Shown here piece after piece: positions 9,801 to 25,475 of a DNA stretch of 41,809 nucleotides. Source of the DNA: Anaerolineae bacterium (GTDB taxonomy: Bacteria; Chloroflexota; Anaerolineae; Aggregatilineales; Phototrophicaceae); NCBI GenBank assembly GCA_017303775.1, contig JAFLCH010000005.1, forward strand, positions 1 to 41,809. Direction: 5' to 3'. The translations under genes and the position numbers were made by a program. How positions within the stretch are numbered: the stretch's first letter is position 1; each line of letters begins with the position of its first letter. The notes beneath the pieces are model-generated. The model ran no database searches. It saw only the letters and a program-made list of their open reading frames with translations, and had not been told where the DNA came from.

Positions 9801-12800
9801 TACGTCCCTTCATCGTTGGTTTTCGTCGCAGGGACAGGGCGGGTTGCACCAGTCACCTTGAGTGAAGCGGCTGGCACCATCACCGCCACCTGGACGAGCC
9901 TGACCACCACTCAAACCAGCCGCCTGCAATTCCAGGCGCGGTTGGTCAATACGGTTCAGCCCGACCAGCCCATCACCAATACAGCAGGCATCACCTGGAC
10001 GAGCCTGCCCGGTAGCCCAACCAACACGACTTACAATCCGCTGGGTGTGGAACGCACGGGCGACCCGACGGGCCCCGGTGGTGCTGCCAACACCTATACC
10101 GCGACTGATCCAGCTACGCTGACGGTCGCCAGTCCAACTGCGACCAAGACCGTTGTATCGACTTCTTTGGCAGATACCGGCAATGGCAGTGATACCGACC
10201 CGGATTTGACTATTGGCGAACAGGTGACGTATCAGATCACCATCACTTTCCGCGAAGGTGTGACCAATAACGCCGTCATTCGGGATGACTTGCCGACGGG
10301 AGCGGCGGTGCTAGGCTACATCAGCAGTCGGATCATCAGCATCGGCAGCAACCTGAGCTTCAGCAGCGCGACTCCAACAGTCGGTCTGGCAGGAACAGCT
10401 ACCGACACCAACGCCGATACGATCCTCAACCGAATAGATTGGAACTTGAGCAACGTCACCAACACGCCTGATAACGTTGCGAACGCCGCCGACCAGATTG
10501 TGGTCGAAATAGTAGCCCGTGTGATCAATGTGGCTGACAATAGCGGCCTTAGCCCGACGCAAGACCTGAACGTGGTCAATACCGGGCGAATCCGGTATAC
10601 CAACTTCGCCGGGGCGACGGTTGCCCAGAATGGCACCACAACGGTTGATATTGTCGAACCACGCCTGATTATCAACAAGAGCGCCAGCGTCCCCCAGGCC
10701 GATGCAGGCGATACCGTCACCTATACCGTGACGGTTCAGAACACTGGTACTGCCCTTGCCTACAATGTCGTCATCACCGATCCCATGCTGCCGGAGCTTG
10801 AACTGCTCACCGGCACGGTGACAACCAGCGCCGGGGCGGTGACCCTGGGCAATACTGCCGGGGACACGACTATCCGGATTGATGCCGTCTCACTGGCGAT
10901 CAATGGGACCATCACCATCACCTATCAGGCGCGGCTGCGGCCCAGCGTCTTCCCCGGTCAGAATTTGGTCAACACGGCGTCACAAACGTCCAACAGCCTG
11001 CCGGATGGCACCGGGCGTACTGGCAATAGCAGCGACCCGGCAACAGTGTTGGTGCTCCTGCCGCAATTCAACAAGGATATTGTCAGCACGTCGGAAGGCG
11101 CGACCTTCCCCGGCGTTGGCACAACCGATCAGTACACGGCAGCACCTGATCTGGCGATTGGCGAGACCATCACCTACCAAATGACCATCGTCGTGCCGGA
11201 AGGCACCAGCAACATCCTGCGCCTGGTCGATACCCTGCCCAGCATCGGCGCGGGCGACCCCGGCACCCTGGATCACATCAGTTCCCGCGTGGTCAGCATC
11301 GGTGCCAACATCAGCAACTCGGCACTGGCAGTCGGCGCATCGGGTAGCGTCGTGGGGCAAGTTATCACCTTCAACTTCGTCGGTGGGACTCCGATCTCCA
11401 ACGTGGCTGATGGCCTGAGTAACGCCGCTGATCAGATGGTGGTTGAAGTGGTGGCACGGGTCAGCACCATCGCTGCCAATGCCAACGGCGACCTGCTGAC
11501 CAACCGCGCCCGCCTGACCTACGATGGCAACAACACGCTGGACGCCAGCGCAGCAGCGGATGTGGTCGAGCCGAACCTCAATATCGACAAGAGCGCCAAC
11601 CCGACCACTGGCCTGAACGCGGGTGATGTCATCACCTACACGCTGGTCATCAACCACACCGCCACTTCGACCGCTGATGCCTTCGATCTGCGGATCACCG
11701 ATGTGATCCCGGCGGGTATCACCTACGGTTCAGTGACGACTGCGGCCTCCACCTGCGATGAACGCGCCGGTTGGTCGGCGGATGTCAGCAGTTTGCCCGG
11801 CACGGCCGTCTACCGCTTTGACGATCTCCCACTGGGCGTGTCCTGCACCATTGTCTACACGGCGACCCTCGCCAACACCGTCACCAACGGCATCACACTG
11901 ACCAACACCGCCAGCCTGCGTTATTCCTCGCTGGATGACGGCACGCCGGATATCAACGACCCGAATGAGCGCGTCTACAACGATAGCGACCCGGTCTCGG
12001 TGACAACTAACCTGGCTCCGCTGTCCTTCACCAAGACAGTGGTGGATAGCTCAGAGACCTACACCGGCGCGGGTCAACACGGGGCAACCCTGACCGACCT
12101 GACCATCGGTGAGACTGTGACCTATGAACTGCGCGCCCGCCTGCAGGAAGGGACGGTGCCGCTCACTATCACCGATACGCTGCCCGCTGGCCTGACCTTC
12201 GTCAGCGCCACCTTGAACCTGCCCGCCCCGACCAACATCACCATCCCGGGTGGCTTCCCGGCACCGACCCTCGCCGGTCAGGTGATGACGCTGACGCTGG
12301 GTAACGTCGTCAACGCCGCCGATAACCTCGCCAACGCGGCGGACGATCTGGTGATTTTGGTCGTTGCCCGCGTCAGCGATGTCGCTGCCAACAGCGGCAC
12401 CACCGGCGCGGACAAGATCAACACTGCCACCCTCAACTGGGGCGGCGGCACCCTCACCGATACCGAGACGGTCGAAATCGTTGAGCCGAACCTCAATATC
12501 GACAAGAGCGCCAACCCGACCACTGGCCTGAACGCGGGTGATGTCATCACCTACACGCTGGTCGTCAACCACACCGCCACTTCAACCGCTGATGCCTTCG
12601 ACCTGCGGATCACCGATGTGATCCCGGCGGGAATCACCTACGGTTCAGTGACGGCTGCGGCCTCCACCTGCGATGAACGCGCCGGTTGGTCGGCGGATGT
12701 CAGCAGTTTGCCTGGAACGGTCATCTACCGCTTTGATGACCTCCCGCTGGGCGTAAGCTGCACCATCGTGTACACGGCGACCCTCGCCAACACCGTCACC

Positions 12801-15800
12801 AATGGGATCACGTTGACCAATACCGCTACAATGGGTTACTCCTCGCTGGATGACGGCACGCCGGATGCCAACGACCCGAACGAGCGCGTCTACACTGACA
12901 CCGACAATGCGGTCATTGATACCAATGTCGCGCCGCTGTCCTTCACCAAATCGGTGATTGACACCTCGGAGGCTTACACCGGCGCAGGTCAACACGGGGC
13001 GACACTGACTGACCTGACCATCGGTGAGACCGTGACCTATGAACTGCGCGCCCGCCTGCAAGAAGGCACGACGCCCATCACCATCACCGATACACTGCCA
13101 ACCGGCCTGAGTTTCGTCAGCACCCAACTGGCACCGACCAACGGCGCGAATGTCACCATCACGGGCGGCTTCCCCGCACCGACCCTCGCCGGTCAGGTGA
13201 TGACGCTGACGCTGGGTAACGTCGTCAACGCCGCCGATAACCTGGTCAATGCCGACGATGATCTGGTCATCTGGGTAGTCGCCCGTGCCAGCAACGTGGC
13301 TGCCAACAACGGCACCACCGGCCTTGATAAGATCAACACTGCCCGACTCAATTGGGGCGGCGGCACCCTCACCGATACCGAGACAGTCGAAATCATTGAG
13401 CCGAACCTCAATATCGACAAGAGCGCCAACCCGACCACTGGCCTGAACGCGGGTGATGTCATCACCTACACGCTGGTCATCAACCATACCGCTACTTCGA
13501 CCGCCGATGCCTTCGACCTGCGGATCACCGATGTGATCCCGGCGGGCATCACCTACGGTTCGGTGACGGCTGCGGCCTCCACCTGCGATGAACGAGCGGG
13601 TTGGACTGCTGACATCAGCAGCTTGCCGGGTACCGTTGTCTATCGCTTTGACGACCTCCCGTTGGCAGCCAGCTGTACCATCACCTACACGGCGACTCTG
13701 GCCAACACCGTCACCAACGGCATCACACTGACCAACACCGCCAGCCTGCGTTATTCCTCGCTGGATGACGGCACGCCGGATGCCAACGACCCGAACGAGC
13801 GCGTCTACAACGATAGTGACACTGCGGTCATTGATACTAATGTGGCACCGCTGTCCTTCACCAAAACGGTGGTGGATAGCTCTCAAACCTACACCGGCGT
13901 GGGTCAACACGGGGCGGCCTTGACCGACCTGACCATCGGCGAGACCGTCACCTATGAACTGCGCGCCCGCCTGCAAGAAGGCACAACGCCCATCATCATC
14001 ACCGATACGCTCCCGGCTGGTCTGGTCTTCATCAGTACCCAACTGGCACCGACCAACGGCGCGAATGTCACCATCACCAACGGCTTCCCGACCCCAACTC
14101 TTGCCGGTCAGGTGATGACGCTGACGCTGGGCAATGTGGTCAATGCCGGGGATAACACCGTCAACGCCGACGATGATCTGGTGATCTGGGTGGTTGCACG
14201 GGTCGCCAATGTGGCGGGCAATATCGGCACCACCGGCCTTGACAAGATCAACACCGCCACCCTCGACTGGGGCCCCGGCACCCTCACGGATACCGAGACG
14301 GTCGAAATCGTTGAACCCCTGTTGGACATCACCAAGAACGCCGCGCCGAACATCGGCCTGGACGCCGGGGACATCGTGACCTACACCTTCTCGGTGACGC
14401 ATACGGGGGCTTCAACAGCAGATGCCCAGGATGTCAGCATCAACGATCTGCTGCCTGCCCATATGACCTACGTGGGCAATGTCGCCACCGTGACTGGGCC
14501 TGCGCCGACCGTCACCAATAGCTCACCCAACATCATCTTTAGTTGGGCGAACCTGCCGCTGGGTGCCACCTATACCTTCACATTCGAGGTCTCTATTGAC
14601 CCGACCGTTGGGCCAGCCGCCAGCCTGACCAACACGGCGACGCTCGGTTGGTCAACGCTGCCCGGCGCTAGCCCTAACGAACGCACCTATACCGATACCG
14701 CCAGTGCGGTCGTCACCACCATCCCGCCGACCATGGAGAAGTCCATCTTCACCACGTCCCTGACCGAGACGGGTTCAGCCCAGCATGACCCGACCATCGT
14801 GGATGTGAACATCGGTGAGACTGTCACCTACTACATGACCATCACCATGCCGGAAGGCACCGCGCCGCTCACCCTGACCGATAACCTGCCAAACGTGATG
14901 ACGGTCGTCAGTTCGCGGGTCTTGAGCCTGGGTGCCAATATCACCACCACCGGCCTTGGCGTTGGTCAGCCGGGCGTGGTCAGCGATGCGAACTTCGCCG
15001 ATGGCTTGCCTGACCGGGTAGTCTTCAACCTCGGCACGGTTCTGAATGCGCCGGATGGCATCGACAACGCGGAAGACCAGATCGTCCTCGAAGTGGTGGC
15101 GCGGGTTGATGAAAACGCAGCCAACCGCAATGGCGATCAGTTGACCAATACCGCCACGCTGAACTACGGTACTGGAACTGTTACCGATACCGAAGTCGTG
15201 GAGGTCGTAGAACCGGAACTCAACATCGACAAGTCGGCGCTGGTCGTCACCGGGCGTCCCGGCGACATCATCGAATACACCATCGTGGTCGATCATGTGG
15301 GTGGTTCCAACAGCCCGGCCTACGACATCGTGATTACCGACCCGATGTTGCCCAATCTCAACTTGATCGTCGGCAGTGTCACCGCTACCCCTGGCAATGT
15401 CGTCCTCGGCAATAACGCCGGTGATACCACGCTGCGGGTGGAACTGGGTGTCCTCAACCCCGGTGATAGCATCACCATCACCTATCAGGCGCAGATTGAC
15501 GCGTCGATCACCCCGCCGGTGACGTTCGTCAACACCGCCACCCTCAACTACGATAGTGCTGCCGGGCCGGGTGGCCGCCCTGGTACCGACGATGACACTC
15601 ATACCATCCGCGTCAATGATGATGTCTATCGCTACTCGAAAACAGTGGTGGATACATCCCTGATCGACACCGGCGATAGCCAGTTGACCGGCGCACCGGA
15701 TGTGACCATCGGCGAGCGCGTGACTTTCCATATCGAAGCCTATCTGCCGGAAGGGACAACCACCAACTTCACCATCACCGATAACTTGCCGGACGGCATG

Positions 15801-18131
15801 ATCGTCGTCAGCAGCCGGGTAGTGAGCATCGGCAGCAACCTCGGCGTCTCCGCGCTGGCAGTGGGCGATCCCGGCACCGCCTCCAACAGTAACTACACGG
15901 CGGATGCCTTTGATGACCGGGTGGTCTTCAGCTTTGGCGATACCACCAATGTCATTGACGGCATCGACGATGACCGTGACGTGGTGGTCGTCGAAGTGGA
16001 AGCCCGCGTATACGATAACCAGTTGCTCAATCGTGGCGGCACCACCGTTACCAACGAGGCCATCATTGACTACGGCCCCAACCGCCGCCGTGCGGAAGCC
16101 GATGTGGACATCGTTGAGCCAAACATCAACCTGACCAAGACCTTTAACCCCCGTATTGAAGGGCGCGGGCATAAGCTGTTCATGACTCTTGAACTGGTCA
16201 ACAGCGGTAGCTCCATCGCTTACAAGGTATCCCTGCGCGACCCGCTCAACCCCGGCCTGTGCCTGGATACAATCAGCGTGGACGCCTCTGGAGCGCCGGG
16301 GACGACCTTCACCAATACCTCTACCAGCGGCTGTGGTGGGATCGTGCAGATCGACTTCACTGACCTGGGCATTGGCGAGCGCATCGTCGTCACGGTTGAA
16401 CTGACTATCGACGCCGCGCTGGAACCAATCCCGCAGGACATCCCCAATACGGCGACCGTAACTTACCAATCCATCCCTGTCGGTCACCCGGATGAAAGCG
16501 AAGCCCGTCAGTATAATGACAATGCTACCGACATCCTGACGGTAGATGAACCAACCATCGAAGTGACCAAAGTCGGCAACCCGCAATCGGTGCGGGCTGG
16601 TGGATTGCTCACCTACACTGTCACCGTCACCAACACTGGCGAACCACCCATCGATGCCTTCCAGGTGGTCATCACCGATGTGCTGCCGCCTGAACTCACC
16701 TATGTCTCGGCTACACCGGCGAAGGGGGTTTGTACCGCCAACGGTCAAACCATCACCTGTATCATCGACAAGCTGCTGCGTGGGGAAACCACCACCATCC
16801 TGATCGAGACTCGGGTCGCGGCTGGCCTGGCGGCTGGTACCCGGATCATCAATCTGCTGGGGCTGACCACCCTGGAGGGTGTGTCGGTCGAAGCTGATGC
16901 CCTGAATGTGGTGGCCTCGGAAGCCGTCTGTAGCATCGGCTGCCCGGATGCCCAGATTTACCACAGCGACCAGACCGGCGACTGGGAAATCTTCCGGCTG
17001 GTGGGCGGCACCACACTTGAGACTGATGCTGATCAAAACCTAACCCAGAACCCTGCCGATGATGTCGAACCGAGTCAATCTCCGGATGGCAACTGGATGG
17101 CCTTCGCCAGCAACCGGGACGGCAATTGGGAAATCTATGTCACCCCGACAACGGTGATTGATGGTCAGCCCACCCGCACCCGCCGCGTCACCACCAACAC
17201 TATCGCGGTCGATACCGACCCGGTCTGGGGGCCGACCGATCATCTGGTGTACGAATCAACCCGCGACGGCAACTGGGAGCTATACCTGCTCGATTTGCGG
17301 ACAGGCATCGAAACCCGCCTGACCAATAACCCAGCCGATGACCTGAATGCGTTCTGGTCGCCGGATGGCTCGCGCCTGGTCTTCCAGAGCAACCGTAGTG
17401 GTCGCTGGCAACTGTATGAACTCAACTTGCAGACGGCAACGCTGCGCCTGCTCAGTGACGGCAGTGGCGATGATATGGATGGAGCCTACGCCAACAATGG
17501 GGAACGGATTGTCTTCCGCTCGGTCAACCCGGATGGCACCATCATCACGTTGATGAATGCGGATGGCAGCGGACGCACTCCCATCAGCGAACGCAGCAGC
17601 CGTGCGGCTAACGCGGTTTGGTCGCCGGATGACAGCCTGATTGTGTATCAATCGGACACGGATGGCGACCTGGACATCTACGTCTACGGTGTTGCAACGG
17701 GTCAAGTCCGTAAGCTGACCGCCAATGATGTGGATGACTATGCCCCGACCTGGTTATGCGGTAGCTTGCAGGTGATCTTCACCTCGGATGAACCCGGCAA
17801 CCCGGATATCTTTCAGGCGAATGCCCTGCCGCTGACGGCCCCGGCCTTAGTGGTGATGGACGACACCACCCAACTGACGATTGACTCGAACCGCGACCTG
17901 TATCCGCAGGGCGCACCCTCGGAGGAGAACGCCAGCCTGGAAGGGATACTGCCGGATACTGTTTCGGCTGAACCTGGTCATACACAGATTTTGAATCTCG
18001 ATATGGCGGTCACGCCTGAAGACCAGACGCTAAATCGGGATGAAGTGTGGGAAGCGATCACAGGTTGTGCAGAGATAGATCTCAATTCATCGCCACCACC
18101 TTATGCGCTGTCGCTGCTGCCTACGCGTTAA
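3801..18131 (+). CDS. Giant secreted multidomain protein: PKD repeats, DUF11 modules, C-terminal TolB-like propeller
   Basis: 4776 residues from ATG 3801 (GGAG 8 nt upstream). Residues 1-25 form a Sec signal peptide (positive start, TLLLVLSIFLLSGTVLA). Residues ~35-100 are a Thr/Pro/Glu-rich linker. About eight PKD-like domains follow (~104-755), most with the W.FGDG(T/S)S hallmark and several with paired Cys (EVCF...CHTY). After a second short linker come ~21 DUF11-like modules (~765-4375), each opening with a K(S/T) strand and containing an ITD.LP motif of the kind found in isopeptide-forming or adhesin-type Ig folds. The end (~4377-4700) is a propeller with TolB-type blades (WSPDGSRLVFQSNRSG and similar). 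I see no LPXTG, S-layer or membrane anchor, so it is probably exported and held by other means. A role in adhesion, sheath or cell-cell contact is inferred from the domains. It stands alone, with a hairpin after its stop. Confidence 0.92.
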   Translation: MIRQGSITTLLLVLSIFLLSGTVLAEVRFVVVQEPISTPGVIPVPVPTEEPAAPTEEIPAPTEEAPTEEVTETPAPTEEATLTSSPEPTTETPSPSETPVIIRVAMNASPSSGNGPLTVIFSDASTGSGINDWSWDFGDGTSASGQGPHSHTYSTPGTYTASLTVRGASGSATASQQIVVFSPGSTVEANFTYQQTSALEVCFSNSSTGAITSSVWSFGDGSNSAETSPCHTYAALGQYTVSLSVTGEGGQTSTASRTVTLLPQTEPPNAAFTPDRTTIAPGGTIRFSDQSTGIIRSWAWDFADGITSNERHPSHQYSTIGTYIVTLTVSGPGGFDQVTATITVAPETVLTCSFNAPSRVFAGEQVTLRNTSRVSPGSFSGFTWFVNGETAATTTDFTTSFGEAGSYTVRLVGLTLDGQTCQSERTVTVLPSNGVIADFTGTRNVIVGAEICLRDRSRGTILSRSWDFGDGTSSAETDPCHSFGSSGRYSVKLTVNGEGGATDSRARTVNVYDAPTLTASANPVNGVAPLSVDFSATGTNISNYEWVFPDGSRAFSANASFLFDQPGEYTVTVSGSGPVGSLSSSLTVQVRAARDVRAAFGASAWNGIAPVEICFTDHSEGEEITSWAWNFGDGATSSQSNPCHTFTSAGQYTVTLQVSNSDGMSASASNTVRIYDPGSGSASLRITSVNELTVCFGSTLDAGMNIVRWEFGDGSTSTEAEPCHPYLADGTYAVKLIVTDISGTERALTASISVKEDEAEEVTATPPPTETPEINVFDPALSKLGYLPAGSIGLTGEELHWLTTVTNNGNAAGANVVIVDNVRPELRIDAVQVASGSSYTINGQQVRVTIPTLLPGERQDFTIVTTVLTSPRSGTINNTVQINETGDSATATIVIPGMMMIQAAPPTPNGPIPLINGVPELTDFAGEEFCITPNFTNAGSNEGYGPYITLVRDANLSLNSIDYLGVNLMASPFLVSSGFLPANDPIEGRAIPGIAGQQWITVRLPIGSLESTSPAIPIRLCMQSAPLAAFGVPLPITIFPGYEFGDTPTGANGPISNLNDVGGMDNAGSFTPILVTFEKGNSLPESEVIPSCYPAPPVGAPGQPGPACAVPPGVQWPYEYFLDIELAAGQTLTTNSYTDVLDPAFEFYPYTFPVTTVANAVISSGTCTPTGITATFNSNPITALPALAPPGGGTLQVDIASIVNPSAATTCTLRLSYRGFINDILSETAAPTTYAATNNASFGYNHVSGPQPILTDTDVVDVRNLEIQKSASPTTVVPGDVVTYTLSFQLSEYIGIQALSVTDIIPDGIDYNVDSATVTVPGLGSAPITGANQSISYGADTGTLVFNVTGARPGPYSAAGTVSITYTGTVRQTYRAGGSLTGFVSANDNLNNTITANFTTTGGQTFNDESSASVTVVPNSLTKELVSTPVDSAAGFVPGEPVTFRLTLRVPSGDTRNLVIEDNFPLPVFQVQDGDFGIEARTITLPDPIGRSAPFDVPNTDGYCSSYDDPNPTFPAYTRACGLRFVYGTDGTNLPAGSSVTVTRVGNTVRLNVDAPVETNLTEERRIVVELTAGIIDQPFNDGLFLSNRSLARYTNTLGSVVTLNADDYVDVAAPDVRICKGISATTNASSVAAAGAACQVTGAPNNNLTNVDAADVLTYTITAQNVGSARAYGVVISDNVTTIPQLTGCTLVSVRDGAGAALAFTGTFPTLTLTNPLPGDGSAGVSTAQATAVVTYQCTVASNVVPLTAPIVNQASVVFAAFSDILPGGPHLNPPTVPFAPRTDVANFVSAAPNITKARTPATATIGDLITYTLAVDIPGGTMNNVSIVDTLDSGLAFVDCTSVSVTSGTLTSSLGAINTANFCNDPTNPVIGAGGGAATWNFGNLTDTGSNNTDLDTITITYTAVVLNTAANVRGQDRNNSAELRWANPAGGQFTDNASAPDTRLVEPTLLVDKTVAPATNLDANDLVTFTIDIRHAAGSDATAHNIALSDVIPSTLTYVPSSLVFVAGTGRVAPVTLSEAAGTITATWTSLTTTQTSRLQFQARLVNTVQPDQPITNTAGITWTSLPGSPTNTTYNPLGVERTGDPTGPGGAANTYTATDPATLTVASPTATKTVVSTSLADTGNGSDTDPDLTIGEQVTYQITITFREGVTNNAVIRDDLPTGAAVLGYISSRIISIGSNLSFSSATPTVGLAGTATDTNADTILNRIDWNLSNVTNTPDNVANAADQIVVEIVARVINVADNSGLSPTQDLNVVNTGRIRYTNFAGATVAQNGTTTVDIVEPRLIINKSASVPQADAGDTVTYTVTVQNTGTALAYNVVITDPMLPELELLTGTVTTSAGAVTLGNTAGDTTIRIDAVSLAINGTITITYQARLRPSVFPGQNLVNTASQTSNSLPDGTGRTGNSSDPATVLVLLPQFNKDIVSTSEGATFPGVGTTDQYTAAPDLAIGETITYQMTIVVPEGTSNILRLVDTLPSIGAGDPGTLDHISSRVVSIGANISNSALAVGASGSVVGQVITFNFVGGTPISNVADGLSNAADQMVVEVVARVSTIAANANGDLLTNRARLTYDGNNTLDASAAADVVEPNLNIDKSANPTTGLNAGDVITYTLVINHTATSTADAFDLRITDVIPAGITYGSVTTAASTCDERAGWSADVSSLPGTAVYRFDDLPLGVSCTIVYTATLANTVTNGITLTNTASLRYSSLDDGTPDINDPNERVYNDSDPVSVTTNLAPLSFTKTVVDSSETYTGAGQHGATLTDLTIGETVTYELRARLQEGTVPLTITDTLPAGLTFVSATLNLPAPTNITIPGGFPAPTLAGQVMTLTLGNVVNAADNLANAADDLVILVVARVSDVAANSGTTGADKINTATLNWGGGTLTDTETVEIVEPNLNIDKSANPTTGLNAGDVITYTLVVNHTATSTADAFDLRITDVIPAGITYGSVTAAASTCDERAGWSADVSSLPGTVIYRFDDLPLGVSCTIVYTATLANTVTNGITLTNTATMGYSSLDDGTPDANDPNERVYTDTDNAVIDTNVAPLSFTKSVIDTSEAYTGAGQHGATLTDLTIGETVTYELRARLQEGTTPITITDTLPTGLSFVSTQLAPTNGANVTITGGFPAPTLAGQVMTLTLGNVVNAADNLVNADDDLVIWVVARASNVAANNGTTGLDKINTARLNWGGGTLTDTETVEIIEPNLNIDKSANPTTGLNAGDVITYTLVINHTATSTADAFDLRITDVIPAGITYGSVTAAASTCDERAGWTADISSLPGTVVYRFDDLPLAASCTITYTATLANTVTNGITLTNTASLRYSSLDDGTPDANDPNERVYNDSDTAVIDTNVAPLSFTKTVVDSSQTYTGVGQHGAALTDLTIGETVTYELRARLQEGTTPIIITDTLPAGLVFISTQLAPTNGANVTITNGFPTPTLAGQVMTLTLGNVVNAGDNTVNADDDLVIWVVARVANVAGNIGTTGLDKINTATLDWGPGTLTDTETVEIVEPLLDITKNAAPNIGLDAGDIVTYTFSVTHTGASTADAQDVSINDLLPAHMTYVGNVATVTGPAPTVTNSSPNIIFSWANLPLGATYTFTFEVSIDPTVGPAASLTNTATLGWSTLPGASPNERTYTDTASAVVTTIPPTMEKSIFTTSLTETGSAQHDPTIVDVNIGETVTYYMTITMPEGTAPLTLTDNLPNVMTVVSSRVLSLGANITTTGLGVGQPGVVSDANFADGLPDRVVFNLGTVLNAPDGIDNAEDQIVLEVVARVDENAANRNGDQLTNTATLNYGTGTVTDTEVVEVVEPELNIDKSALVVTGRPGDIIEYTIVVDHVGGSNSPAYDIVITDPMLPNLNLIVGSVTATPGNVVLGNNAGDTTLRVELGVLNPGDSITITYQAQIDASITPPVTFVNTATLNYDSAAGPGGRPGTDDDTHTIRVNDDVYRYSKTVVDTSLIDTGDSQLTGAPDVTIGERVTFHIEAYLPEGTTTNFTITDNLPDGMIVVSSRVVSIGSNLGVSALAVGDPGTASNSNYTADAFDDRVVFSFGDTTNVIDGIDDDRDVVVVEVEARVYDNQLLNRGGTTVTNEAIIDYGPNRRRAEADVDIVEPNINLTKTFNPRIEGRGHKLFMTLELVNSGSSIAYKVSLRDPLNPGLCLDTISVDASGAPGTTFTNTSTSGCGGIVQIDFTDLGIGERIVVTVELTIDAALEPIPQDIPNTATVTYQSIPVGHPDESEARQYNDNATDILTVDEPTIEVTKVGNPQSVRAGGLLTYTVTVTNTGEPPIDAFQVVITDVLPPELTYVSATPAKGVCTANGQTITCIIDKLLRGETTTILIETRVAAGLAAGTRIINLLGLTTLEGVSVEADALNVVASEAVCSIGCPDAQIYHSDQTGDWEIFRLVGGTTLETDADQNLTQNPADDVEPSQSPDGNWMAFASNRDGNWEIYVTPTTVIDGQPTRTRRVTTNTIAVDTDPVWGPTDHLVYESTRDGNWELYLLDLRTGIETRLTNNPADDLNAFWSPDGSRLVFQSNRSGRWQLYELNLQTATLRLLSDGSGDDMDGAYANNGERIVFRSVNPDGTIITLMNADGSGRTPISERSSRAANAVWSPDDSLIVYQSDTDGDLDIYVYGVATGQVRKLTANDVDDYAPTWLCGSLQVIFTSDEPGNPDIFQANALPLTAPALVVMDDTTQLTIDSNRDLYPQGAPSEENASLEGILPDTVSAEPGHTQILNLDMAVTPEDQTLNRDEVWEAITGCAEIDLNSSPPPYALSLLPTR
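11571..14315 (+). repeat. Three tandem 915-bp (305-residue) coding repeats inside the giant gene
   Basis: The string CCGAACCTCAATATCGACAA recurs at exactly 11571, 12486 and 13401, and the equivalent position after the third unit is 14316. Each 915-bp unit encodes two DUF11-like modules: one opening NLNIDKSANPTTGLNAGD, the other opening SFTK and containing TIGETVTYELRARLQEG. Long stretches are identical in DNA, with patches of divergence in the second module, so the array grew by recent in-frame duplication. Such an array is also a likely place for assembly collapse or length variation between strains. Confidence 0.95.
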
Positions 18132-18136
18132 ACTGA

Positions 18137-18192
18137 CTACCCCTCATACAGAACGCACTCCTTGACCGAGATGCGTTCTGTATGAGGGGTAG
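18137..18192 (+). terminator. Long perfect hairpin after the giant gene
   Basis: Two perfectly complementary 21-nt arms (18137-18157 and 18172-18192, beginning CTACCCCTCATACAG) enclose a 14-nt loop, six bases after the TAA. There is no T-run behind it, so it may be a transcript-end stabiliser or a bidirectional terminator rather than a classic Rho-independent site. Confidence 0.7.
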
Positions 18193-18205
18193 AGTTGGAG
18201 GGTGA

Positions 18206-18385
18206 GTCTGCGATAATGCGGGCAGATCATTCGTGAGTTTGCCCCCTGAAACGGAACAGTCGCAACGTATAGATATTGATGAGAAACTTCGCCACCATCT
18301 CTCAAGGGCCTTAGATATTGACCCGACTAAGCGTCCAACTATTGAAGAGATGATCGATGTATTGAGTCCAACTCGCCCCGTATGA
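18206..18385 (+). pseudogene. C-terminal fragment of a Ser/Thr protein kinase-like gene
   Basis: The frame, open from 18206 and ending at TGA 18383, contains LRHHLSRALDIDPTKRPTIE followed by EMIDVL. This matches the last helices of a eukaryotic-type kinase C-lobe (subdomain XI: ...RAL..DP..RPT..EM...L). Only about 50 residues remain and no catalytic part is nearby. A GTG at 18233 exists, but expression of such a fragment is unlikely to be useful. It is probably a relic of a deletion near the end of the giant gene. Confidence 0.5.
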
Positions 18386-18520
18386 TTTTCTGAGGGCCAT
18401 GGTCAATGTATAAGGGTTCTGCTCTCTAATGTACATCATGCTTTCTTTGTGCGTAAGCTGATCTATTTCGGATAGAGCCCAATAGAGAGTTGTGAGCGTT
18501 AGGTAAGTGGAAGCACAGTA
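18386..18520. other. Intergenic spacer without recognisable feature
   Basis: No ORF with family resemblance and no strong structure seen between the kinase fragment and the repeat cluster that begins at 18521. Confidence 0.4.
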
Positions 18521-18573
18521 TCATGATTAGCTAACAGCGTCCAACAGTTGCTCATGATTGGTTAACGACGCCT
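18521..18573. repeat. Pair of ~22-bp direct repeats next to the iteron blocks
   Basis: TCATGATTAGCTAACAGCGT (18521) and TCATGATTGGTTAACGACGC (18552) recur 31 bp apart. All differences between the two copies are transitions. They directly precede the first iteron block and may belong to the same replication-control region. Confidence 0.5.
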
Positions 18574-18580
18574 AGCTCAG

Positions 18581-18834
18581 TTCACAGGTTTCACAATCTT
18601 CACAACTCGGTAGTGATCGACATGAAAGCGTTGTTTGAGGGTGGGCCAAATCTTCTGCAAATCAGCACGACAATGCTTATGACCTGTGATTTCTGTGAAG
18701 ACTGTGATGAAAACAACTTATACCAATAGAAAAGCCTGTGTTCACAGGTTTCACAACCTTCACAGGCTTTCTTCGGGCTTCACCCCTTGAGCCTGTCAGT
18801 TTTCGTCTTCACAACCCTCACAAGTTTCACAGCC
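18581..18834. repeat. Four blocks of three 9-bp TGTGAR iterons: candidate replication origin
   Basis: Each block holds exactly three TGTGAA/G/T hexamers at 9-bp pitch. Block I is 18581-18607 (minus orientation), block II 18685-18711 (plus), block III 18741-18767 (minus) and block IV 18808-18834 (minus). Block IV is also the 3' end of the PrimPol-helicase gene, where it encodes the Cys-Glu-rich tail CETCEGCEDEN. Because three blocks lie outside the gene and one is inverted, the repeat seems selected at DNA level. Iteron arrays beside a replication primase-helicase gene are typical plasmid or satellite-phage origins, so an origin function is inferred here. Block I also lies at the end of a minus-strand frame of about 46 codons ending QRFHVDHYRVVKIVKPVN, without a clear start. 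Confidence 0.6.
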
Positions 18835-21708
18835 TAGAATTTCAGGCTTCAACCGCCATAGACGAATGACACTACCGCGCACACTGCGTTGCACCGTGAG
18901 GTTAGTTTTGCCGGGCAGCAGCAAGCCATCTTCTTTGAGTTGCGTGCCGATAGCAAAGGCGGTAAAGCGGAGCGGCTGGATTTTGTTCACCTCACGTAAA
19001 GCGACATCTGGCAGTAAGTAGATGAAGCTCTCATCACGGTAGCCTGCGACGACCGCCCCAGGCGTTGGATCACCTTGTGCGCGCAATGATGGTTCGATAA
19101 CGCATTGCCCACTGCCGATGATCTGCCCCAGAATGTTCAAGAACATCTCACTGGCACGTTCCTGACGCAGCGTGCGGACACTCTCGACAATTACATCCTG
19201 CCAGCCAGGGAGCAGATAGTCTTCGTCCATCTCAGATAGAAATCGGGAGAGCATTTGGTAGACCGTTACCAGCACTGCCCAATTCTGGATTACACGTCCG
19301 GTATTGGATTGCCCACCCGCTTGTTTTGCAAGCTTTTCGCGGTAGCCACGCATGTTGTTGCTGAAGCGGTTGGCGATGTCGGTTTTCAGATCACCTTGCT
19401 CAAGCTGTTTCGCTATCCACGATGCGAAATGTGCAGTGAAGCCTGGCAGGTATTCACGTAAACGTTCCGCCTGTGCCAGCGCCTTAGCGCCCGGGTCACG
19501 CTTCTCCCAGGGCGGGATTTCCAGTACCAGCATTCGCGCGACAACCGACATCTCACCCTCGATAGTCGTTTCGCCAGTAGAGAGGATTAGCCCGCGACAG
19601 GGTTTCTCATGACGAACCTTCGCCTCACGAGTCAAACGTCCTCGTCCCATGCCGCGCGAGTAGGATTGCAGAAAACGGGTGAACGTCTTCTCGTCTGCGT
19701 AGATGCTCTTGTAGTCATCAACCCAGAACAGACTGTCTGCCAGTGGATAGCCCAATGTTTCGACGGTGTTGATCGTATCCCCCCATTGTGCAGGCGGTGT
19801 ATCCCGGCCGAACTGCCCGTAGAAGCTGGTCAGGAGCGAAGCAATCTCCGACTTGCCACTGCCGGATGTTCCTACCAAATGGACAGCAGGTCGTGGCGCG
19901 GCAGGCGGAAAGAAGCGTTGAAGCAAAGGCAGGAGCGCAAAAGCGATGAGCGATGATGCCATCCGGGGTGGCAGCACCTTTGTGACTGCATCAAAGGCTT
20001 GAAGACTCTCTGGCCAGCTAGTCGTCTGCAAGCCGTAGTCTCGCAATCGTTGGTCGAGTTCAACCGCTGGTGAATCTGTCAGTTTGCCCTTCTCGGTGAT
20101 GCAGTCCTGCGGTGAAATGTAAACCCACTTTCCATCCATTTGCATCCAGCCCATGAAGTTATAGTGACGATGCGTGGGAAACTCGCCAGACAACTGCACA
20201 ATCGCCGGTACAAGATGCTTGGACATCCCTGCCCGCACGACGTACTGTGAACCGGCATTCGCTCCAACAAAGCGGCGCAGCGCAATATCATCGACAAATA
20301 CTTCTCCCGGCACATCCAGCTTCTTTACAGAGTCACCGCGCCGGAGTTCAAGGGCTGTCGTGTGGGTTTCCTTGCTATCGTCATCAAGTTGACAGGTCTG
20401 GTAGATCACCTTTGCAGTCCAATCTGTGACCGTGTTTTCTATCGTGCCGCGATAGGTTTCTTTGTGATGGATGATTTTGCCATCGCGCAGCAGATAGCTC
20501 TCGGTATCAATGTACCCCTGCTCCCTCTGCTGGAAGCTAGCACGCTTCTTCTCTTTATAAAGATGATCAATGTCCCCGATTTTCAATCCATCACCGCATA
20601 GCACTTTCAGGCGCTGTCGCTCTGCCGCCCACTCAACAGGATTGAGATGGATACATGCTTCAACTGCGGCGACAATCTGAGCAGTAGTAGGACGTTCTGC
20701 TTTCTGATCAACCTGAAACTGTCCTACAAGTTGGTCAACAATTTGGCGTGCCTGCTGGCTTCTTTCTGCGATAGGCTCACGCGGCGGGCGGCTGTAGGTA
20801 CTGCGGATGGTCGCCAACGCCTCACGCTCATTGCATCCGTCAGCCACGTAGCGTGGGACAAGCTGGGCCTCGGCATCGGATAGGGAATTGCCCGCATCGC
20901 GCAGTTGACAGGCAGCGGCGAAAAGTTCCTTGTTGCGCTGATGTACTGGCGCACCAGCTATCAGATACCCCTCGGTGCGCCGAGGCAACGGATGCTGCCC
21001 ATTTCCATTCAGGGTGACAACTTTGAGATTACCAACTCTGGTTGGCTCGACCGGCTGGCGCAGCCAATCGAATTGGGCAAGTGAATAGCGCCGGGTGGGA
21101 TCGCCTTCAACAATGCTGACGATGGCACCGTTACGTTCAGGCTTGGTATTGATGCTGCCGGGCAGTCGCATGACAGAAGCCACCGACTTGACATAAGCCG
21201 GGTCGCCACCCAGGGCGGAAGCCAATCCCCGCAGCACATCAGCAATGCGGGTACGAGCAGCTTCATCAGTCAGGACAAAGGGTTCATCCAACAGCCAGTA
21301 GCTGTGCCAGCCGCCACCACTATCGAGTATGAATGAAGGTGCTGGGTCAAACGCCCTTAGTCTCTCCAGCAGGCGGTCTCGTTGGGTGGGATCTTCATCG
21401 GCATCTACATCCAACCAGAGGGCCGGGACGAGCGCAGCGGACTCGGCACTGCCCTTGCTCTCAGAGCGCAGGCAGGGGGCGAAGTAGAGACCAAAGACTT
21501 CGCGGTTCAGGGTGTCAGCCTGCTTGAAGCTGGTCATCAAGCGGCGTTTGTCGCCAACCTTGCTCCACAGGGTCTTGACCTCGCCGGTTTCCGGGTGAAT
21601 GCAGCGTAGTTCGAGATAGAGATCATCCGGGCAGCCTTGATAAAGTGCGCTCAGAAAGGCGCGGCGATCCAGCGCCGACAGCTTGTCGGTAGTCAGGTTG
21701 TGTGCCAT
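18796..21708 (-). CDS. PrimPol-helicase replication protein (AEP primase domain plus SF3/DUF927-like ATPase)
   Basis: 970 residues. The N-terminal part is an archaeo-eukaryotic-type primase domain: catalytic ALWLDVDADED with Asp100/Asp102, then FILDSGGGWHSYW with His135, then VMRLPGSINTK. These match the DxD, sxGxGxH-like and LPG(S/T)xNxK signatures of RepB/PrimPol proteins. A middle linker follows. A helicase ATPase comes next, with Walker A GTSGSGKS near residue 611 and Walker B-like SLFWVDDYK about 50 residues later. The last residues are CETCEGCEDEN, encoded by an iteron-like block. It probably primes and unwinds DNA at the neighbouring iterons, like satellite-phage alpha-type proteins. 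AAGGA lies about 13 nt before ATG 21708. It is the last gene of the minus-strand mobilization operon, 81 nt after the relaxase candidate. The domain assignment is strong, but the exact family is uncertain. Confidence 0.85.
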   Translation of the reverse strand: MAHNLTTDKLSALDRRAFLSALYQGCPDDLYLELRCIHPETGEVKTLWSKVGDKRRLMTSFKQADTLNREVFGLYFAPCLRSESKGSAESAALVPALWLDVDADEDPTQRDRLLERLRAFDPAPSFILDSGGGWHSYWLLDEPFVLTDEAARTRIADVLRGLASALGGDPAYVKSVASVMRLPGSINTKPERNGAIVSIVEGDPTRRYSLAQFDWLRQPVEPTRVGNLKVVTLNGNGQHPLPRRTEGYLIAGAPVHQRNKELFAAACQLRDAGNSLSDAEAQLVPRYVADGCNEREALATIRSTYSRPPREPIAERSQQARQIVDQLVGQFQVDQKAERPTTAQIVAAVEACIHLNPVEWAAERQRLKVLCGDGLKIGDIDHLYKEKKRASFQQREQGYIDTESYLLRDGKIIHHKETYRGTIENTVTDWTAKVIYQTCQLDDDSKETHTTALELRRGDSVKKLDVPGEVFVDDIALRRFVGANAGSQYVVRAGMSKHLVPAIVQLSGEFPTHRHYNFMGWMQMDGKWVYISPQDCITEKGKLTDSPAVELDQRLRDYGLQTTSWPESLQAFDAVTKVLPPRMASSLIAFALLPLLQRFFPPAAPRPAVHLVGTSGSGKSEIASLLTSFYGQFGRDTPPAQWGDTINTVETLGYPLADSLFWVDDYKSIYADEKTFTRFLQSYSRGMGRGRLTREAKVRHEKPCRGLILSTGETTIEGEMSVVARMLVLEIPPWEKRDPGAKALAQAERLREYLPGFTAHFASWIAKQLEQGDLKTDIANRFSNNMRGYREKLAKQAGGQSNTGRVIQNWAVLVTVYQMLSRFLSEMDEDYLLPGWQDVIVESVRTLRQERASEMFLNILGQIIGSGQCVIEPSLRAQGDPTPGAVVAGYRDESFIYLLPDVALREVNKIQPLRFTAFAIGTQLKEDGLLLPGKTNLTVQRSVRGSVIRLWRLKPEILGCETCEGCEDEN

Positions 21709-21789: not shown

Positions 21790-22788
21790 TTACAAGTCGA
21801 TTTCCATCGCTGGCTGGTCCGGTTCCAAATCCTCCAGCAAGGCCGAACGTTCCGCTGGTGTCATCTTCCCCAGCACCCCGGCCAACTGCTTCAGCTGCTC
21901 CAGGTCACCTTTCATCCCAATTCCCAGAACTTGTGCCAGTTGCTCGGCCTCTTCGTGAGTTAGACCACTCAACAGCGGACGGAACTGAACGGTGACAGAC
22001 TCCTCGTCGTCATCGGTCGGCGTGGCATAAGGTCGATAGAAGCCCAGGCTGGTAGTCGTTTCGCTGGTGCGGCGCAAGCCACACCAGACCGGCCACTCTC
22101 GGTCATCCTTATCAATCGTCCATCCATGCGGGTCTCCGTCGGTGATCGCTATCTGCTGCTCACGGATGTCTGCTAACTGGTCATGGCGTGTTTCCCATTC
22201 CGGCCCGACATAACGATCCATGAGCGCGACCATCTGGCCTTCTGTCGCCCGATGCAGCATCTCGATGTGGTCGACCTTGCGATTGCGGCTGAAGAAGAGC
22301 GGCACCCGGCAGCTATGTTCCTCACTGTAGACCGTGCCGGGCAGGACAGTGTGAGTATGCGGGTTGTGCAATCCCGGTGCCTCTAGATCGTTGGTCAAAC
22401 GATGATGCAGCACTGTTGAAAACTCGATACCTGTGTCCAGTCCCCGGCGGTCGAAGAAGTCCTCGATGACTCCCTCGGTCAGTTCCCACATAAACGCCTC
22501 CCGATCTTCCGGCGCGACCATCGCTATCAGGTCAGGATTAGGATTTGTGACCAGGCTGAAGGCCAGCACATGCTCACTTTTCAGGGCGTCGCAGCGAGCG
22601 GCAATCTCGGCGACCGATCCGCCCATGCCGTGATCCCGCCAACGATCCTTCCCGGCTGCGTGGCGAGCAGCCTCATCCCGGCTCTCCCTGTACGTCAGGT
22701 AGTGCAAAAGATTCTTCGACTGCTTTGCGCCATCAGCGGACGGCTTCTTGTATTGCACATTGGCGACACACATCTGCTTGTGATCCAT
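21790..22788 (-). CDS. Candidate HUH-type mobilization relaxase
   Basis: 332 residues. The region 123-151 reads STVLHHRLTNDLEAP then GLHNPHTHTVLPG, giving an H-x2-H-x-H metal-binding triad (His141, His144, His146) flanked by hydrophobic strands as in HUH relaxases. An N-terminal NLLHYLTYRES (Tyr30/Tyr33) could supply the nicking tyrosine. The C-terminal third is acidic and not recognisable. The gene is 4 nt downstream of an RHH protein, the usual MobC-relaxase arrangement, and upstream of the replication protein. Role proposed: nicking at an oriT for conjugative mobilization. The fold call comes from motif and context only. A replication-initiator HUH protein is the main alternative. Confidence 0.55.
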   Translation of the reverse strand: MDHKQMCVANVQYKKPSADGAKQSKNLLHYLTYRESRDEAARHAAGKDRWRDHGMGGSVAEIAARCDALKSEHVLAFSLVTNPNPDLIAMVAPEDREAFMWELTEGVIEDFFDRRGLDTGIEFSTVLHHRLTNDLEAPGLHNPHTHTVLPGTVYSEEHSCRVPLFFSRNRKVDHIEMLHRATEGQMVALMDRYVGPEWETRHDQLADIREQQIAITDGDPHGWTIDKDDREWPVWCGLRRTSETTTSLGFYRPYATPTDDDEESVTVQFRPLLSGLTHEEAEQLAQVLGIGMKGDLEQLKQLAGVLGKMTPAERSALLEDLEPDQPAMEIDL

Positions 22789-22792
22789 GCCG

Positions 22793-23101
22793 TTACTGTC
22801 CCTCCTGGCGGCGGCGAATGCTGTTCACAAAGTCGTTGAACTGCCCCGTCAGCGCGTCCAGCTTGACCTCGATCCCATCCACCTTGCGCTCAATACCTTT
22901 GGCGATGGCTCGCCTCGATCCGGGCAGGTCATCCTGCGAGGCCAGGTAGTAGTTGACGGCATCGCGCAGCAGGTCGTTCTTACTGACGAAGCGACCGGCA
23001 CGAGCGCGAAGGTTGCGGAGTTCCTCCAACCGCCGCATTTGCTCGGGGGTCAGATTGACGGTCATGCGTTCGCTGTAAGCATTGGGTGTGCGTCGTTTCA
23101 T
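22793..23101 (-). CDS. Ribbon-helix-helix DNA-binding protein (CopG/MobC-like accessory)
   Basis: 102 residues. RMTVNLTPEQMRRLEELRNL (about residues 12-31) is a typical RHH opening: a beta strand with alternating polar residues, then an amphipathic helix. FVSKNDLLRDAVNYYL supplies the second helix. The basic, helical C-terminus (IEVKLDALTGQFNDFVNSIR) resembles a coiled coil. The start ATG overlaps the stop of the HU-like gene (ATGA), and the stop is 4 nt before the relaxase candidate, so translation of the three genes is coupled. It likely binds the origin of transfer or autoregulates the operon. Confidence 0.7.
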   Translation of the reverse strand: MKRRTPNAYSERMTVNLTPEQMRRLEELRNLRARAGRFVSKNDLLRDAVNYYLASQDDLPGSRRAIAKGIERKVDGIEVKLDALTGQFNDFVNSIRRRQEGQ

Positions 23102-23388
23102 TCGGTTGCTCCCTTCCCTATCCCCAGAACGGCTTGCTTCAATTTGGCAGTGGGTCGGAAGCGCAGATACAGGCGCTTGAGCCGTCGCCGTCCGACAAAT
23201 CCGCCTGCCTCCATCTGCTGCACTTCCACCACCAGCTTGCCCAGGTCGCCCAGGGTGATTGAGCCTTCAGGTAGACTGAGGTCTGCCAGCCAGAGTTCAT
23301 GCTGAACGGCCAGCACCTCGGTGATGTCGCGACGTTTGAGGCGCGGCAGCCGCCTCGCAATTTCACGGACGAGTTGACAGTGATTCAT
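23098..23388 (-). CDS. HU/IHF-like nucleoid DNA-binding protein
   Basis: I place the start at ATG 23388, because GGAGG stands 9 nt upstream; a longer frame from 23433 lacks a ribosome site. The 96-residue product follows the HU pattern: MNHCQLVREIARRLPRLKRR (helix 1), a helix-2 region, SITLGDLGKLVVEVQ (the strand pair with the G-x-G-like turn), an arm region, then LYLRFRPTAKLKQAV (the conserved F.PS..LK.AV ending). It is divergent from standard HU in the arm. It starts the minus-strand operon HU-RHH-relaxase-PrimPol and sits beside the hairpin array, so it may bend that DNA for nicking or replication. Confidence 0.65.
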   Translation of the reverse strand: MNHCQLVREIARRLPRLKRRDITEVLAVQHELWLADLSLPEGSITLGDLGKLVVEVQQMEAGGFVGRRRLKRLYLRFRPTAKLKQAVLGIGKGATE

Positions 23389-23429
23389 GTGTGTAAGCCT
23401 CCGTATACTGACTGGTGCATGGGTTCTTC

Positions 23430-23681
23430 GCACCCCGGTACCGGGTGCGGTCAGTGGGTGCGGCTCACCGCATCCACTGACGCGGCGTGTGCCTCACACC
23501 GCCGCCTCGGTGCCAGCGCCGCAGGCCGCTGCACCGCAGCCCTCCGGCGCATGAGGAGCCAGCGATTTAGCTGGCCTGCGCGGGGGTGGAATGAGTTACT
23601 CATCCAGAGTGAGGGTGTTCCACCCCACCCCCGCGCGTGGTTGCCGCGCCCCGACGCGGCAACCGGGCGGCTCTGCCGCCC
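23430..23681. other. Array of consecutive hairpins between partition and mobilization genes (candidate oriT/ssDNA origin or structured RNA)
   Basis: Seven or more hairpins follow each other with hardly any gap. A: 23430-23448 (GCACCC/GGGTGC around GGTACC). B: 23450-23481 (14-bp stem, one G-T pair, 4-nt loop). C: 23482-23505 (10-bp stem with a bulge). D: 23528-23540 (5 bp). E: 23558-23575 (GCCAGC/GCTGGC). F: 23578-23636 (GCGCGGGGGTGGAA with its bulged complement, and TGAGTTACTCA inside). G: 23639-23664 (perfect 10-bp stem, 6-nt loop). H: 23665-23681 (GGGCGGC/GCCGCCC, 3-nt loop). No ORF with coding character crosses it. Hairpins G/H directly follow the parR-like stop and could end that transcript, but the number of stems is more than a terminator needs. 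Confidence 0.7.
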
Positions 23682-23704: not shown

Positions 23705-24094
23705 TCACCAGCCCCGATCCTGAATGCGCTTCGACCGGCGCTCGCTCTCGTTGTCTGCCATGCCTGTAGCCCATGCGGGAGCTTGTACTGCAGGAGTAAG
23801 TTGCACTGTCGGACGAGCAGCTAACTCATGCAGGTAACTCTCCAACCAGGCAGGCATGTCGGACAAGGCTTGTCGTATCCAGGCGGTGTCATGCTGCAAC
23901 ACGCTCAGTTCCGGGATGCTCAGGCGTTTGGCGGGCCTCATGCCCAGCCCCAATCGCTCCCGGATTAGGTCGCGCAGCGCCTCACTGCGCTCGCCTTCGG
24001 TGCAGCCTTCCCACCAATCCAGGATGTCAGCGTCGCTATCGTAGTAGGCTTTGAACGAGATCATCTTGTAACCGCGTCTCGGCTTCTTCGGCAT
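23705..24094 (-). CDS. ParR-like partition adaptor (RHH-type), partner of the ParM-like protein
   Basis: 129 residues from ATG 24094, with AAGGAGG 6 nt upstream. The N-terminal region YKMISFKAYYDSDADILDWW followed by EGERSEALRDLIRERLG (about residues 9-48) matches the RHH fold of ParR/StbB adaptors, in which a strand and a GxRSxAIRxxL helix bind the centromere. The rest is low in recognisable motifs. The gene lies 79 nt downstream of the actin-like gene in the same direction, the standard parM-parR order. Function by family: binds parC and links the plasmid to ParM filaments. The call relies on context as much as on sequence. Confidence 0.6.
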   Translation of the reverse strand: MPKKPRRGYKMISFKAYYDSDADILDWWEGCTEGERSEALRDLIRERLGLGMRPAKRLSIPELSVLQHDTAWIRQALSDMPAWLESYLHELAARPTVQLTPAVQAPAWATGMADNESERRSKRIQDRGW

Positions 24095-25440: not shown

Positions 25441-25475
25441 CACCAATATATGAGCAGGTTTTTGTTCCTGCCACG

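Follow-up and report, generated by a model that had tools for sequence, protein, structure and literature searches.

The α protein of satellite phage P4 is a primase–helicase whose C-terminal winged helix binds short iterons at two sites, a likeness to the role predicted for the protein described below; the crr site of P4 lies far from ori, which sets it apart from the present array. The O protein of phage lambda, like the initiator of plasmid pSK41, binds its own boxes inside its own gene. In pSK41, a RepA_N plasmid, what the origin encodes is a linker of the protein (PMC5703833), a precedent for coding sequence doubling as origin, although its initiator is unrelated to ours, and its origin lies mid-gene, without helicase or primase fusion. 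In pRN1, a primase–SF3 helicase–winged helix protein (ORF904) is encoded directly upstream of the origin (PMC4234260); that origin is a 100-nt stem-loop, whereas the family studied here shares iteron blocks, and the hairpin found behind the gene in the window is a short terminator-like one at block 2.

As described in the sections of the SaPI/PICI literature cited here (PMC7581432, PMC6092414), SaPIbov1 Rep (PDB 8tch) and the EcCICFT073 pri-rep-ori module share with our locus primase and AAA+ helicase functions, which some PICIs combine in one protein, a C-terminal iteron-binding domain and an origin directly 3' of the gene (both predicted in our case), and two iteron sets around a spacer (here blocks 3 and 4, spacing 104). 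In PICIs, the origin always lies 3' of rep and comprises an AT-rich region with a set of iterons on either side (PMC6092414). Among the SCCmec proteins, Cch2 uses its C-terminal domain to bind three short direct repeats that follow its operon (cited section of PMC7581432); the Cch systems have a separate polymerase–primase and 5-nt iterons, and the cited section reports no block in a coding tail.

Here we analyse a locus in a 41,809-nt stretch of Anaerolineae DNA, hereafter the window. Its sequence suggests, with a probability that we put at a little over 80%, that four blocks of short repeats are the cognate iterons of the adjacent primase–helicase and form the replication origin of a conjugative element.

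Four iteron blocks at the 3' end of a primase–helicase gene

TGTGAR triplets at 9-bp pitch occur at four places in the window, one of them inverted (Table 1). All four had been predicted, and each was found at its expected position: the consensus TGTGARNNNTGTGARNNNTGTGAR with up to two mismatches gave four matches in the window, compared with 0.03 expected from window shuffles. With at most one mismatch, it gave three matches in the whole 4.47-Mb MAG, all at this locus. Block 1 indeed forms the 3' end of the primase–helicase open reading frame, whose product ends in ...LGCETCEGCEDEN.

Table 1. Coordinates of the repeat array, the primase–helicase gene and the neighbouring genes in the window.
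Feature	Coordinates	Strand	Remarks
Iteron block 4	18581..18604	-	Exact TGTGARNNNTGTGARNNNTGTGAR match; other half of putative origin core; 104 nt from block 3
Block 3/4 spacer, 80 bp	18605..18684	.	Putative melting site
Iteron block 3	18685..18708	+	Two mismatches to TGTGARNNNTGTGARNNNTGTGAR (units 1 and 3, T for R); orientation opposite to that of the other blocks; half of putative origin core
Terminator-like hairpin arms	18731-18740 / 18761-18770		Holds block 2
Iteron block 2	18741..18764	-	Exact TGTGARNNNTGTGARNNNTGTGAR match; loop and stem of terminator-like hairpin; homologue counterpart ~100 nt past Trp codon
Iteron block 1	18808..18831	-	TGTGAAACT TGTGAGGGT TGTGAA; exact TGTGARNNNTGTGARNNNTGTGAR match; within 3' end of primase–helicase gene; encodes CETCEGCE
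Codons 905-963	18820..18996	-	Recognition helix and wing of winged helix; sole part closely tracking iteron type
970-aa primase–helicase (P0001), proposed initiator	18796..21708	-	Domain, profile and model matches
HUH relaxase-like protein	21790..22788	-	LHNPHTHTVLP, invariant H141/H144/H146; fold match to TraI relaxases
Ribbon-helix-helix (RHH) protein	22793..23101	-	RHH_1
Weakly HU-like protein	23098..23433	-	Bac_DNA_binding, below Pfam cut-off
129-aa protein beside actin gene	23705..24094	-	ParR-like by position only; no Pfam match
ParM/ALP-type plasmid actin	24174..25304	-	ALP_N, MreB-like_C

Folded as RNA, the segment 18726-18785 gave the block 2 hairpin at -24.8 kcal/mol (z -4.8); we claim this structure for the window and its nearest homologue, L031, only, since the folds of several other homologues are positioned slightly off the hairpin. 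The spacer between blocks 3 and 4 is 52% AT in the window and about 58% AT in homologues, against 45% in the gene, and it is partly conserved across iteron types (CATTT...ACT..ATTTCAAAAAAT.CACACCCC), its overall conservation being poor; the modest AT content and the poor conservation in the window count against an origin. Two further expectations found no support: the paired 22-bp repeats at 18521 and 18552, which the original prediction included in the origin, agree with each other at no more than 16 of 22 positions and have no counterpart in L031 as judged by eye, and GC skew shows no clear turn around the blocks.

The primase–helicase resembles PHROG DNA primases and harbours RepB_primase (78-195) and DUF927 (427-702) domains, both above Pfam cut-offs; the former match (E 1.8e-6) makes it a primase fused to a helicase. 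SaPIbov1 Rep (8tch) was matched by phmmer in the helicase region (aa 608-735, E 3e-4), and a weak match to Cch1 (NF047345) fell far below the cut-off of that family. No Rep_3 domain, as found in classical iteron plasmids, was detected with Pfam. Modelled with 29 homologues, aa 762-970 show a C-terminal winged helix (~852-958, pLDDT ~90) followed by a disordered tail. Foldseek searches of the PDB with this model returned SaPIbov1 Rep as the best match (8tch, E 1e-4), followed by the pCW3 relaxosome protein TcpK and by SCCmec Cch (5dgk, E 0.017); searching the PDB with a profile of the C-terminal alignment found nothing. Both the helicase sequence and the winged-helix fold thus match 8tch.

A conjugative element carries the putative module

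The relaxase-like, RHH, HU-like, 129-aa and ParM genes all lie upstream of the primase–helicase gene in the same orientation, and this core recurs in homologous loci. Contig G010:C327 carries a 99.86% identical copy of window positions 1-25455, beyond which it encodes a topoisomerase and then a VirD4/TraG coupling protein. Such a coupling protein is encoded roughly 6-12 kb from the homologues on G010:C327, G015:C25, G015:C6, G015:C14 and G342:C13, and no tyrosine integrase (PF00589) was matched on G010:C327, G015:C25, G015:C14 or G342:C13. The primase–helicase gene is carried by a conjugative element or by one that is integrated.

The analogy with satellite phages drawn in the original prediction fits the initiator–origin module but not the element itself, given its relaxase, its ParM-like actin and the coupling protein of the near-identical copy. 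As a whole, the element does not look like a PICI, for which phage-dependent transfer would be expected in place of these conjugation genes.

The identity with G010:C327 ends abruptly at position 25455, where the window continues with a methyltransferase gene and the other contig with topoisomerase and T4SS genes; the break reflects a misjoined MAG or else a genuine rearrangement. On the other side of the array, the window harbours a 4776-aa open reading frame (3801-18131, + strand) whose product has a TolB-like propeller at the C-terminus and numerous repeats of the isopeptide-forming fimbrial (RrgB-like) and DUF11 kinds. A stretch homologous to this reading frame lies inverted beside the copy of the element at L041.

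The array recurs with locus-specific spellings

The primase–helicase family is present in 25 of the 98 genomes of one Anaerolineae family, with up to several copies per genome, and outside that family we collected only fragments (G030, of the same order). An IMG/VR protein search yielded no relatives, and PLSDB and INPHARED yielded partial matches only (<=48% coverage, about 35% identity or less among the matches listed). The comparison covered 52 distinct gene ends, of which nearly all belong to that one family; the layout was scored in 43 loci, each with its own hexamer. The repeats are spelled TGTGAA, TGAGAC, TGTGAC, GGAGAC, GGTGAC, GATGAC or TGTGGG.

In nearly all scored loci block 1 starts +26/+27 nt from a conserved Trp codon, and block 2 mostly lies at +93 to +106 nt. 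An inverted block followed 96-108 nt on (mode 104) by a direct block was recognized in 25 of the 43; in the other 18 no such pair reached the threshold, the blocks being degenerate or interrupted, or the scan too insensitive to divergence. As a control, upstream coding DNA of equal length contained a single block in total across the 52 loci, and shuffles about none. Blocks of the same locus agree at 18.6 and 19.3 of 24 positions, compared with 14.0 and 14.1 upon permutation; none of 5000 permutations reached the observed agreement.

The anticipated recurrence of triplets at and beyond the gene 3' end is thus found in most of the ~50 loci, each with its own spelling, and the sequences support a compact array that resembles an origin and is linked to the neighbouring primase–helicase. 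The outcome that would have spoken against the prediction, a tail kept and the non-coding blocks lost, is confined to loci of degraded or interrupted appearance (L014, L015, L012 and L035; in L012 and L035 the interruption is an inserted element end), and the reverse, a lost tail with the block DNA kept, recurs in several loci (see below). The count of exactly three units applies to most homologous blocks, with four units in block 2 of L037.

Blocks 2 and 3 are separated by ~600 bp of inserted DNA in L036, L037 and L049, where the block 3-4 spacing is still 104. That blocks 3-4 move in these loci while blocks 1-2 remain at the gene end, together with the location of block 2 in a terminator-like hairpin, would fit operators by which the winged helix or another protein of the element controls transcription or termination of the rep operon, replication starting elsewhere. 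However, terminators do not need protein sites, a sigma-70 scan of 18130-18900 found no promoter-like site, and the narrowly fixed spacing of blocks 3-4 and their partly conserved spacer resemble PICI-type origins (PMC6092414). We therefore regard the operator hypothesis as unlikely.

In L036 and L049, an opposite-strand open reading frame of ~200 codons (MEWNAHLVAIRLASDAARVHIIERSYLEPTG...) lies between the gene end and the putative origin core.

The coding tail follows the DNA site

The C-terminal tails are wholly different among the loci: GCETCEGCEDEN, FVETVEPPET, GCDDCDAV, GGDAGDSGDG, GDDTDDSG, or none. In L038, L039, L043, L061 and L088, the gene stops before it reaches most of block 1, whose DNA is kept, mostly or wholly non-coding. 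Codon usage in the tails is strongly skewed, with TGT outnumbering TGC 48:1 for Cys (151:205 in gene bodies) and GAC favoured 89:15 for Asp (938:1185 in gene bodies), in counts that include related loci and hence are not independent. Together, the survival of block 1 as non-coding DNA and the Cys codon bias indicate that the tail peptide is a by-product of the DNA site, as had been suspected for the Cys-Glu tail of the window protein. On these sequence grounds, the constraint acts on the DNA and not on the peptide.

In one minus-strand frame, blocks 1, 2 and 4 would each be translated as C-E-x-C-E-x-C-E, which might be taken to mean that the Cys-rich peptide is functional, for instance in metal binding, and was duplicated downstream as degenerate pseudo-tails. 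We find this highly implausible: block 3 is inverted, tails made of CD, VET, GD or DD repeats, or no tail at all, go with a persisting DNA block, and Cys is encoded almost exclusively by TGT (48:1).

Repeat type covaries with a segment of the winged helix

Sequence identity over aa 905-963 predicts whether two loci share an iteron type with an AUC of 0.96, compared with 0.50 for aa 1-150 and 0.53 for aa 151-300. Among pairs whose helicases (451-780) are at least 0.9 identical, identity over aa 781-860 is 0.86 for same-type and 0.89 for different-type pairs, while over aa 905-963 it is 0.93 and 0.53, respectively, the different-type pairs numbering only five and not being independent. Over the latter segment, the identity of different-type pairs never exceeds 0.64. 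With TGAGAC-type proteins, L055 (TGTGAC) shares 75-89% of residues in aa 861-904 and 53-60% in aa 905-963. TGTGAA proteins, found in two places on the tree, have in common a wing Ser (Q[KR]S) absent from the other types in the alignment. The window protein is itself a mosaic, resembling L010, L048 and L041 over aa 1-300 and the TGAGAC group over aa 301-840, and its last 60 residues are nearest to those of the TGTGAA proteins L070 and L064. As far as these alignments go, iteron type is coupled to aa 905-963 only. Part of the covariation is explained by joint exchange through recombination, because the iterons adjoin the winged-helix codons.

These data also bear on two other roles for the blocks. 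They might belong to oriT or serve the relaxosome as accessory sites, with the relaxase, the RHH protein or a winged helix of TcpK type as the reader, in keeping with the relaxase-like gene directly upstream of the primase–helicase and with the resemblance of the winged helix to TcpK, the binder of pCW3 oriT. Yet relaxase and RHH identities fail to predict iteron type (AUC 0.49 and 0.46), and these proteins are up to 93-97% identical between loci of different types, which makes this role quite improbable. The element also encodes a ParM-like actin, and parC sites are direct repeats, so that the blocks could be conceived as a ParR-bound centromere. Here the odds are smaller still: the blocks lie ~5 kb away from parM, ParM identity predicts iteron type hardly better (AUC 0.57), and between loci of different types ParM and the 129-aa protein are up to 99% and 94% identical, respectively. 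On the covariation and codon evidence, we rejected the oriT, parC and functional-tail explanations.

Co-resident elements share an iteron type in 8 of 40 within-genome pairs, compared with 8.7 expected (P 0.50); such pairs do not avoid a shared type, and there is thus no sign of incompatibility sorting.

A putative initiator–origin module

The best reading of the locus is a SaPI/PICI-type initiator–origin module on Chloroflexota conjugative elements, in which both replication from the array and its binding by the initiator are inferred. The winged helix (aa ~852-958) would read the 9-bp repeat, with specificity residing in ~905-963, as the covariation suggests. Two AAA+ helicase oligomers would be seated on blocks 3 and 4, which face opposite ways at a distance of 104 bp, or about ten turns of the helix; the 80-bp spacer between them may then melt, and the fused primase part would prime synthesis. 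Blocks 1 and 2 are probably accessory sites, which might serve in titration, loading or autoregulation. In a change of address, the winged helix and all blocks would change together.

We propose more tentatively, with the odds rather against it, that the ~60-residue winged-helix segment and the four blocks are exchanged or rewritten together as a modular, evolving code, with at least seven address types on a shared replication chassis within one Anaerolineae family, and that the blocks in the coding tail and in the terminator could let origin occupancy feed back on initiator expression.

The arrangement itself is already known. What is new is its presence on Chloroflexota conjugative elements, where at least seven repeat spellings go along with a segment of ~60 residues; our literature search, which is weak evidence of absence, found no published report of such a module in this phylum. 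The module differs from those of SaPIs and PICIs by its host group and by its setting among relaxase, ParM-like actin and T4SS coupling protein genes, and also by its RepB_primase domain and its two further blocks, one in the coding tail and the other in the terminator. About 50 natural variants with seven spellings, whose winged helices differ within ~60 residues, represent a ready data set for learning how winged helices read DNA and how a replicon changes its origin specificity. They also illustrate clearly how the requirements of a DNA site can dictate protein-coding sequence.

Insertions and duplications at the array

A common mobile-element end (TTGGCGAATCGAYGTAGRATRGATTTTGAGGGAAAATGGGGC) was found at L035:4198-4251 (+) and, in L012, on the minus strand near reverse-complement position 2885. 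It adjoins block 3 in one locus and block 4 in another, and this mobile element may therefore have a preference for iterons. In L011, L027 and L069, the contigs end soon after block 1 and the proteins have a common C-terminal extension (CCWRIDVGWIVSENRTEREP... in L011 and L027), which probably reflects repeated insertion at block 1. Finally, L039 harbours, at +288 to +502 from the rep stop codon, a tandem duplicate (87%) of the rep 3' end that includes blocks 1 and 2.
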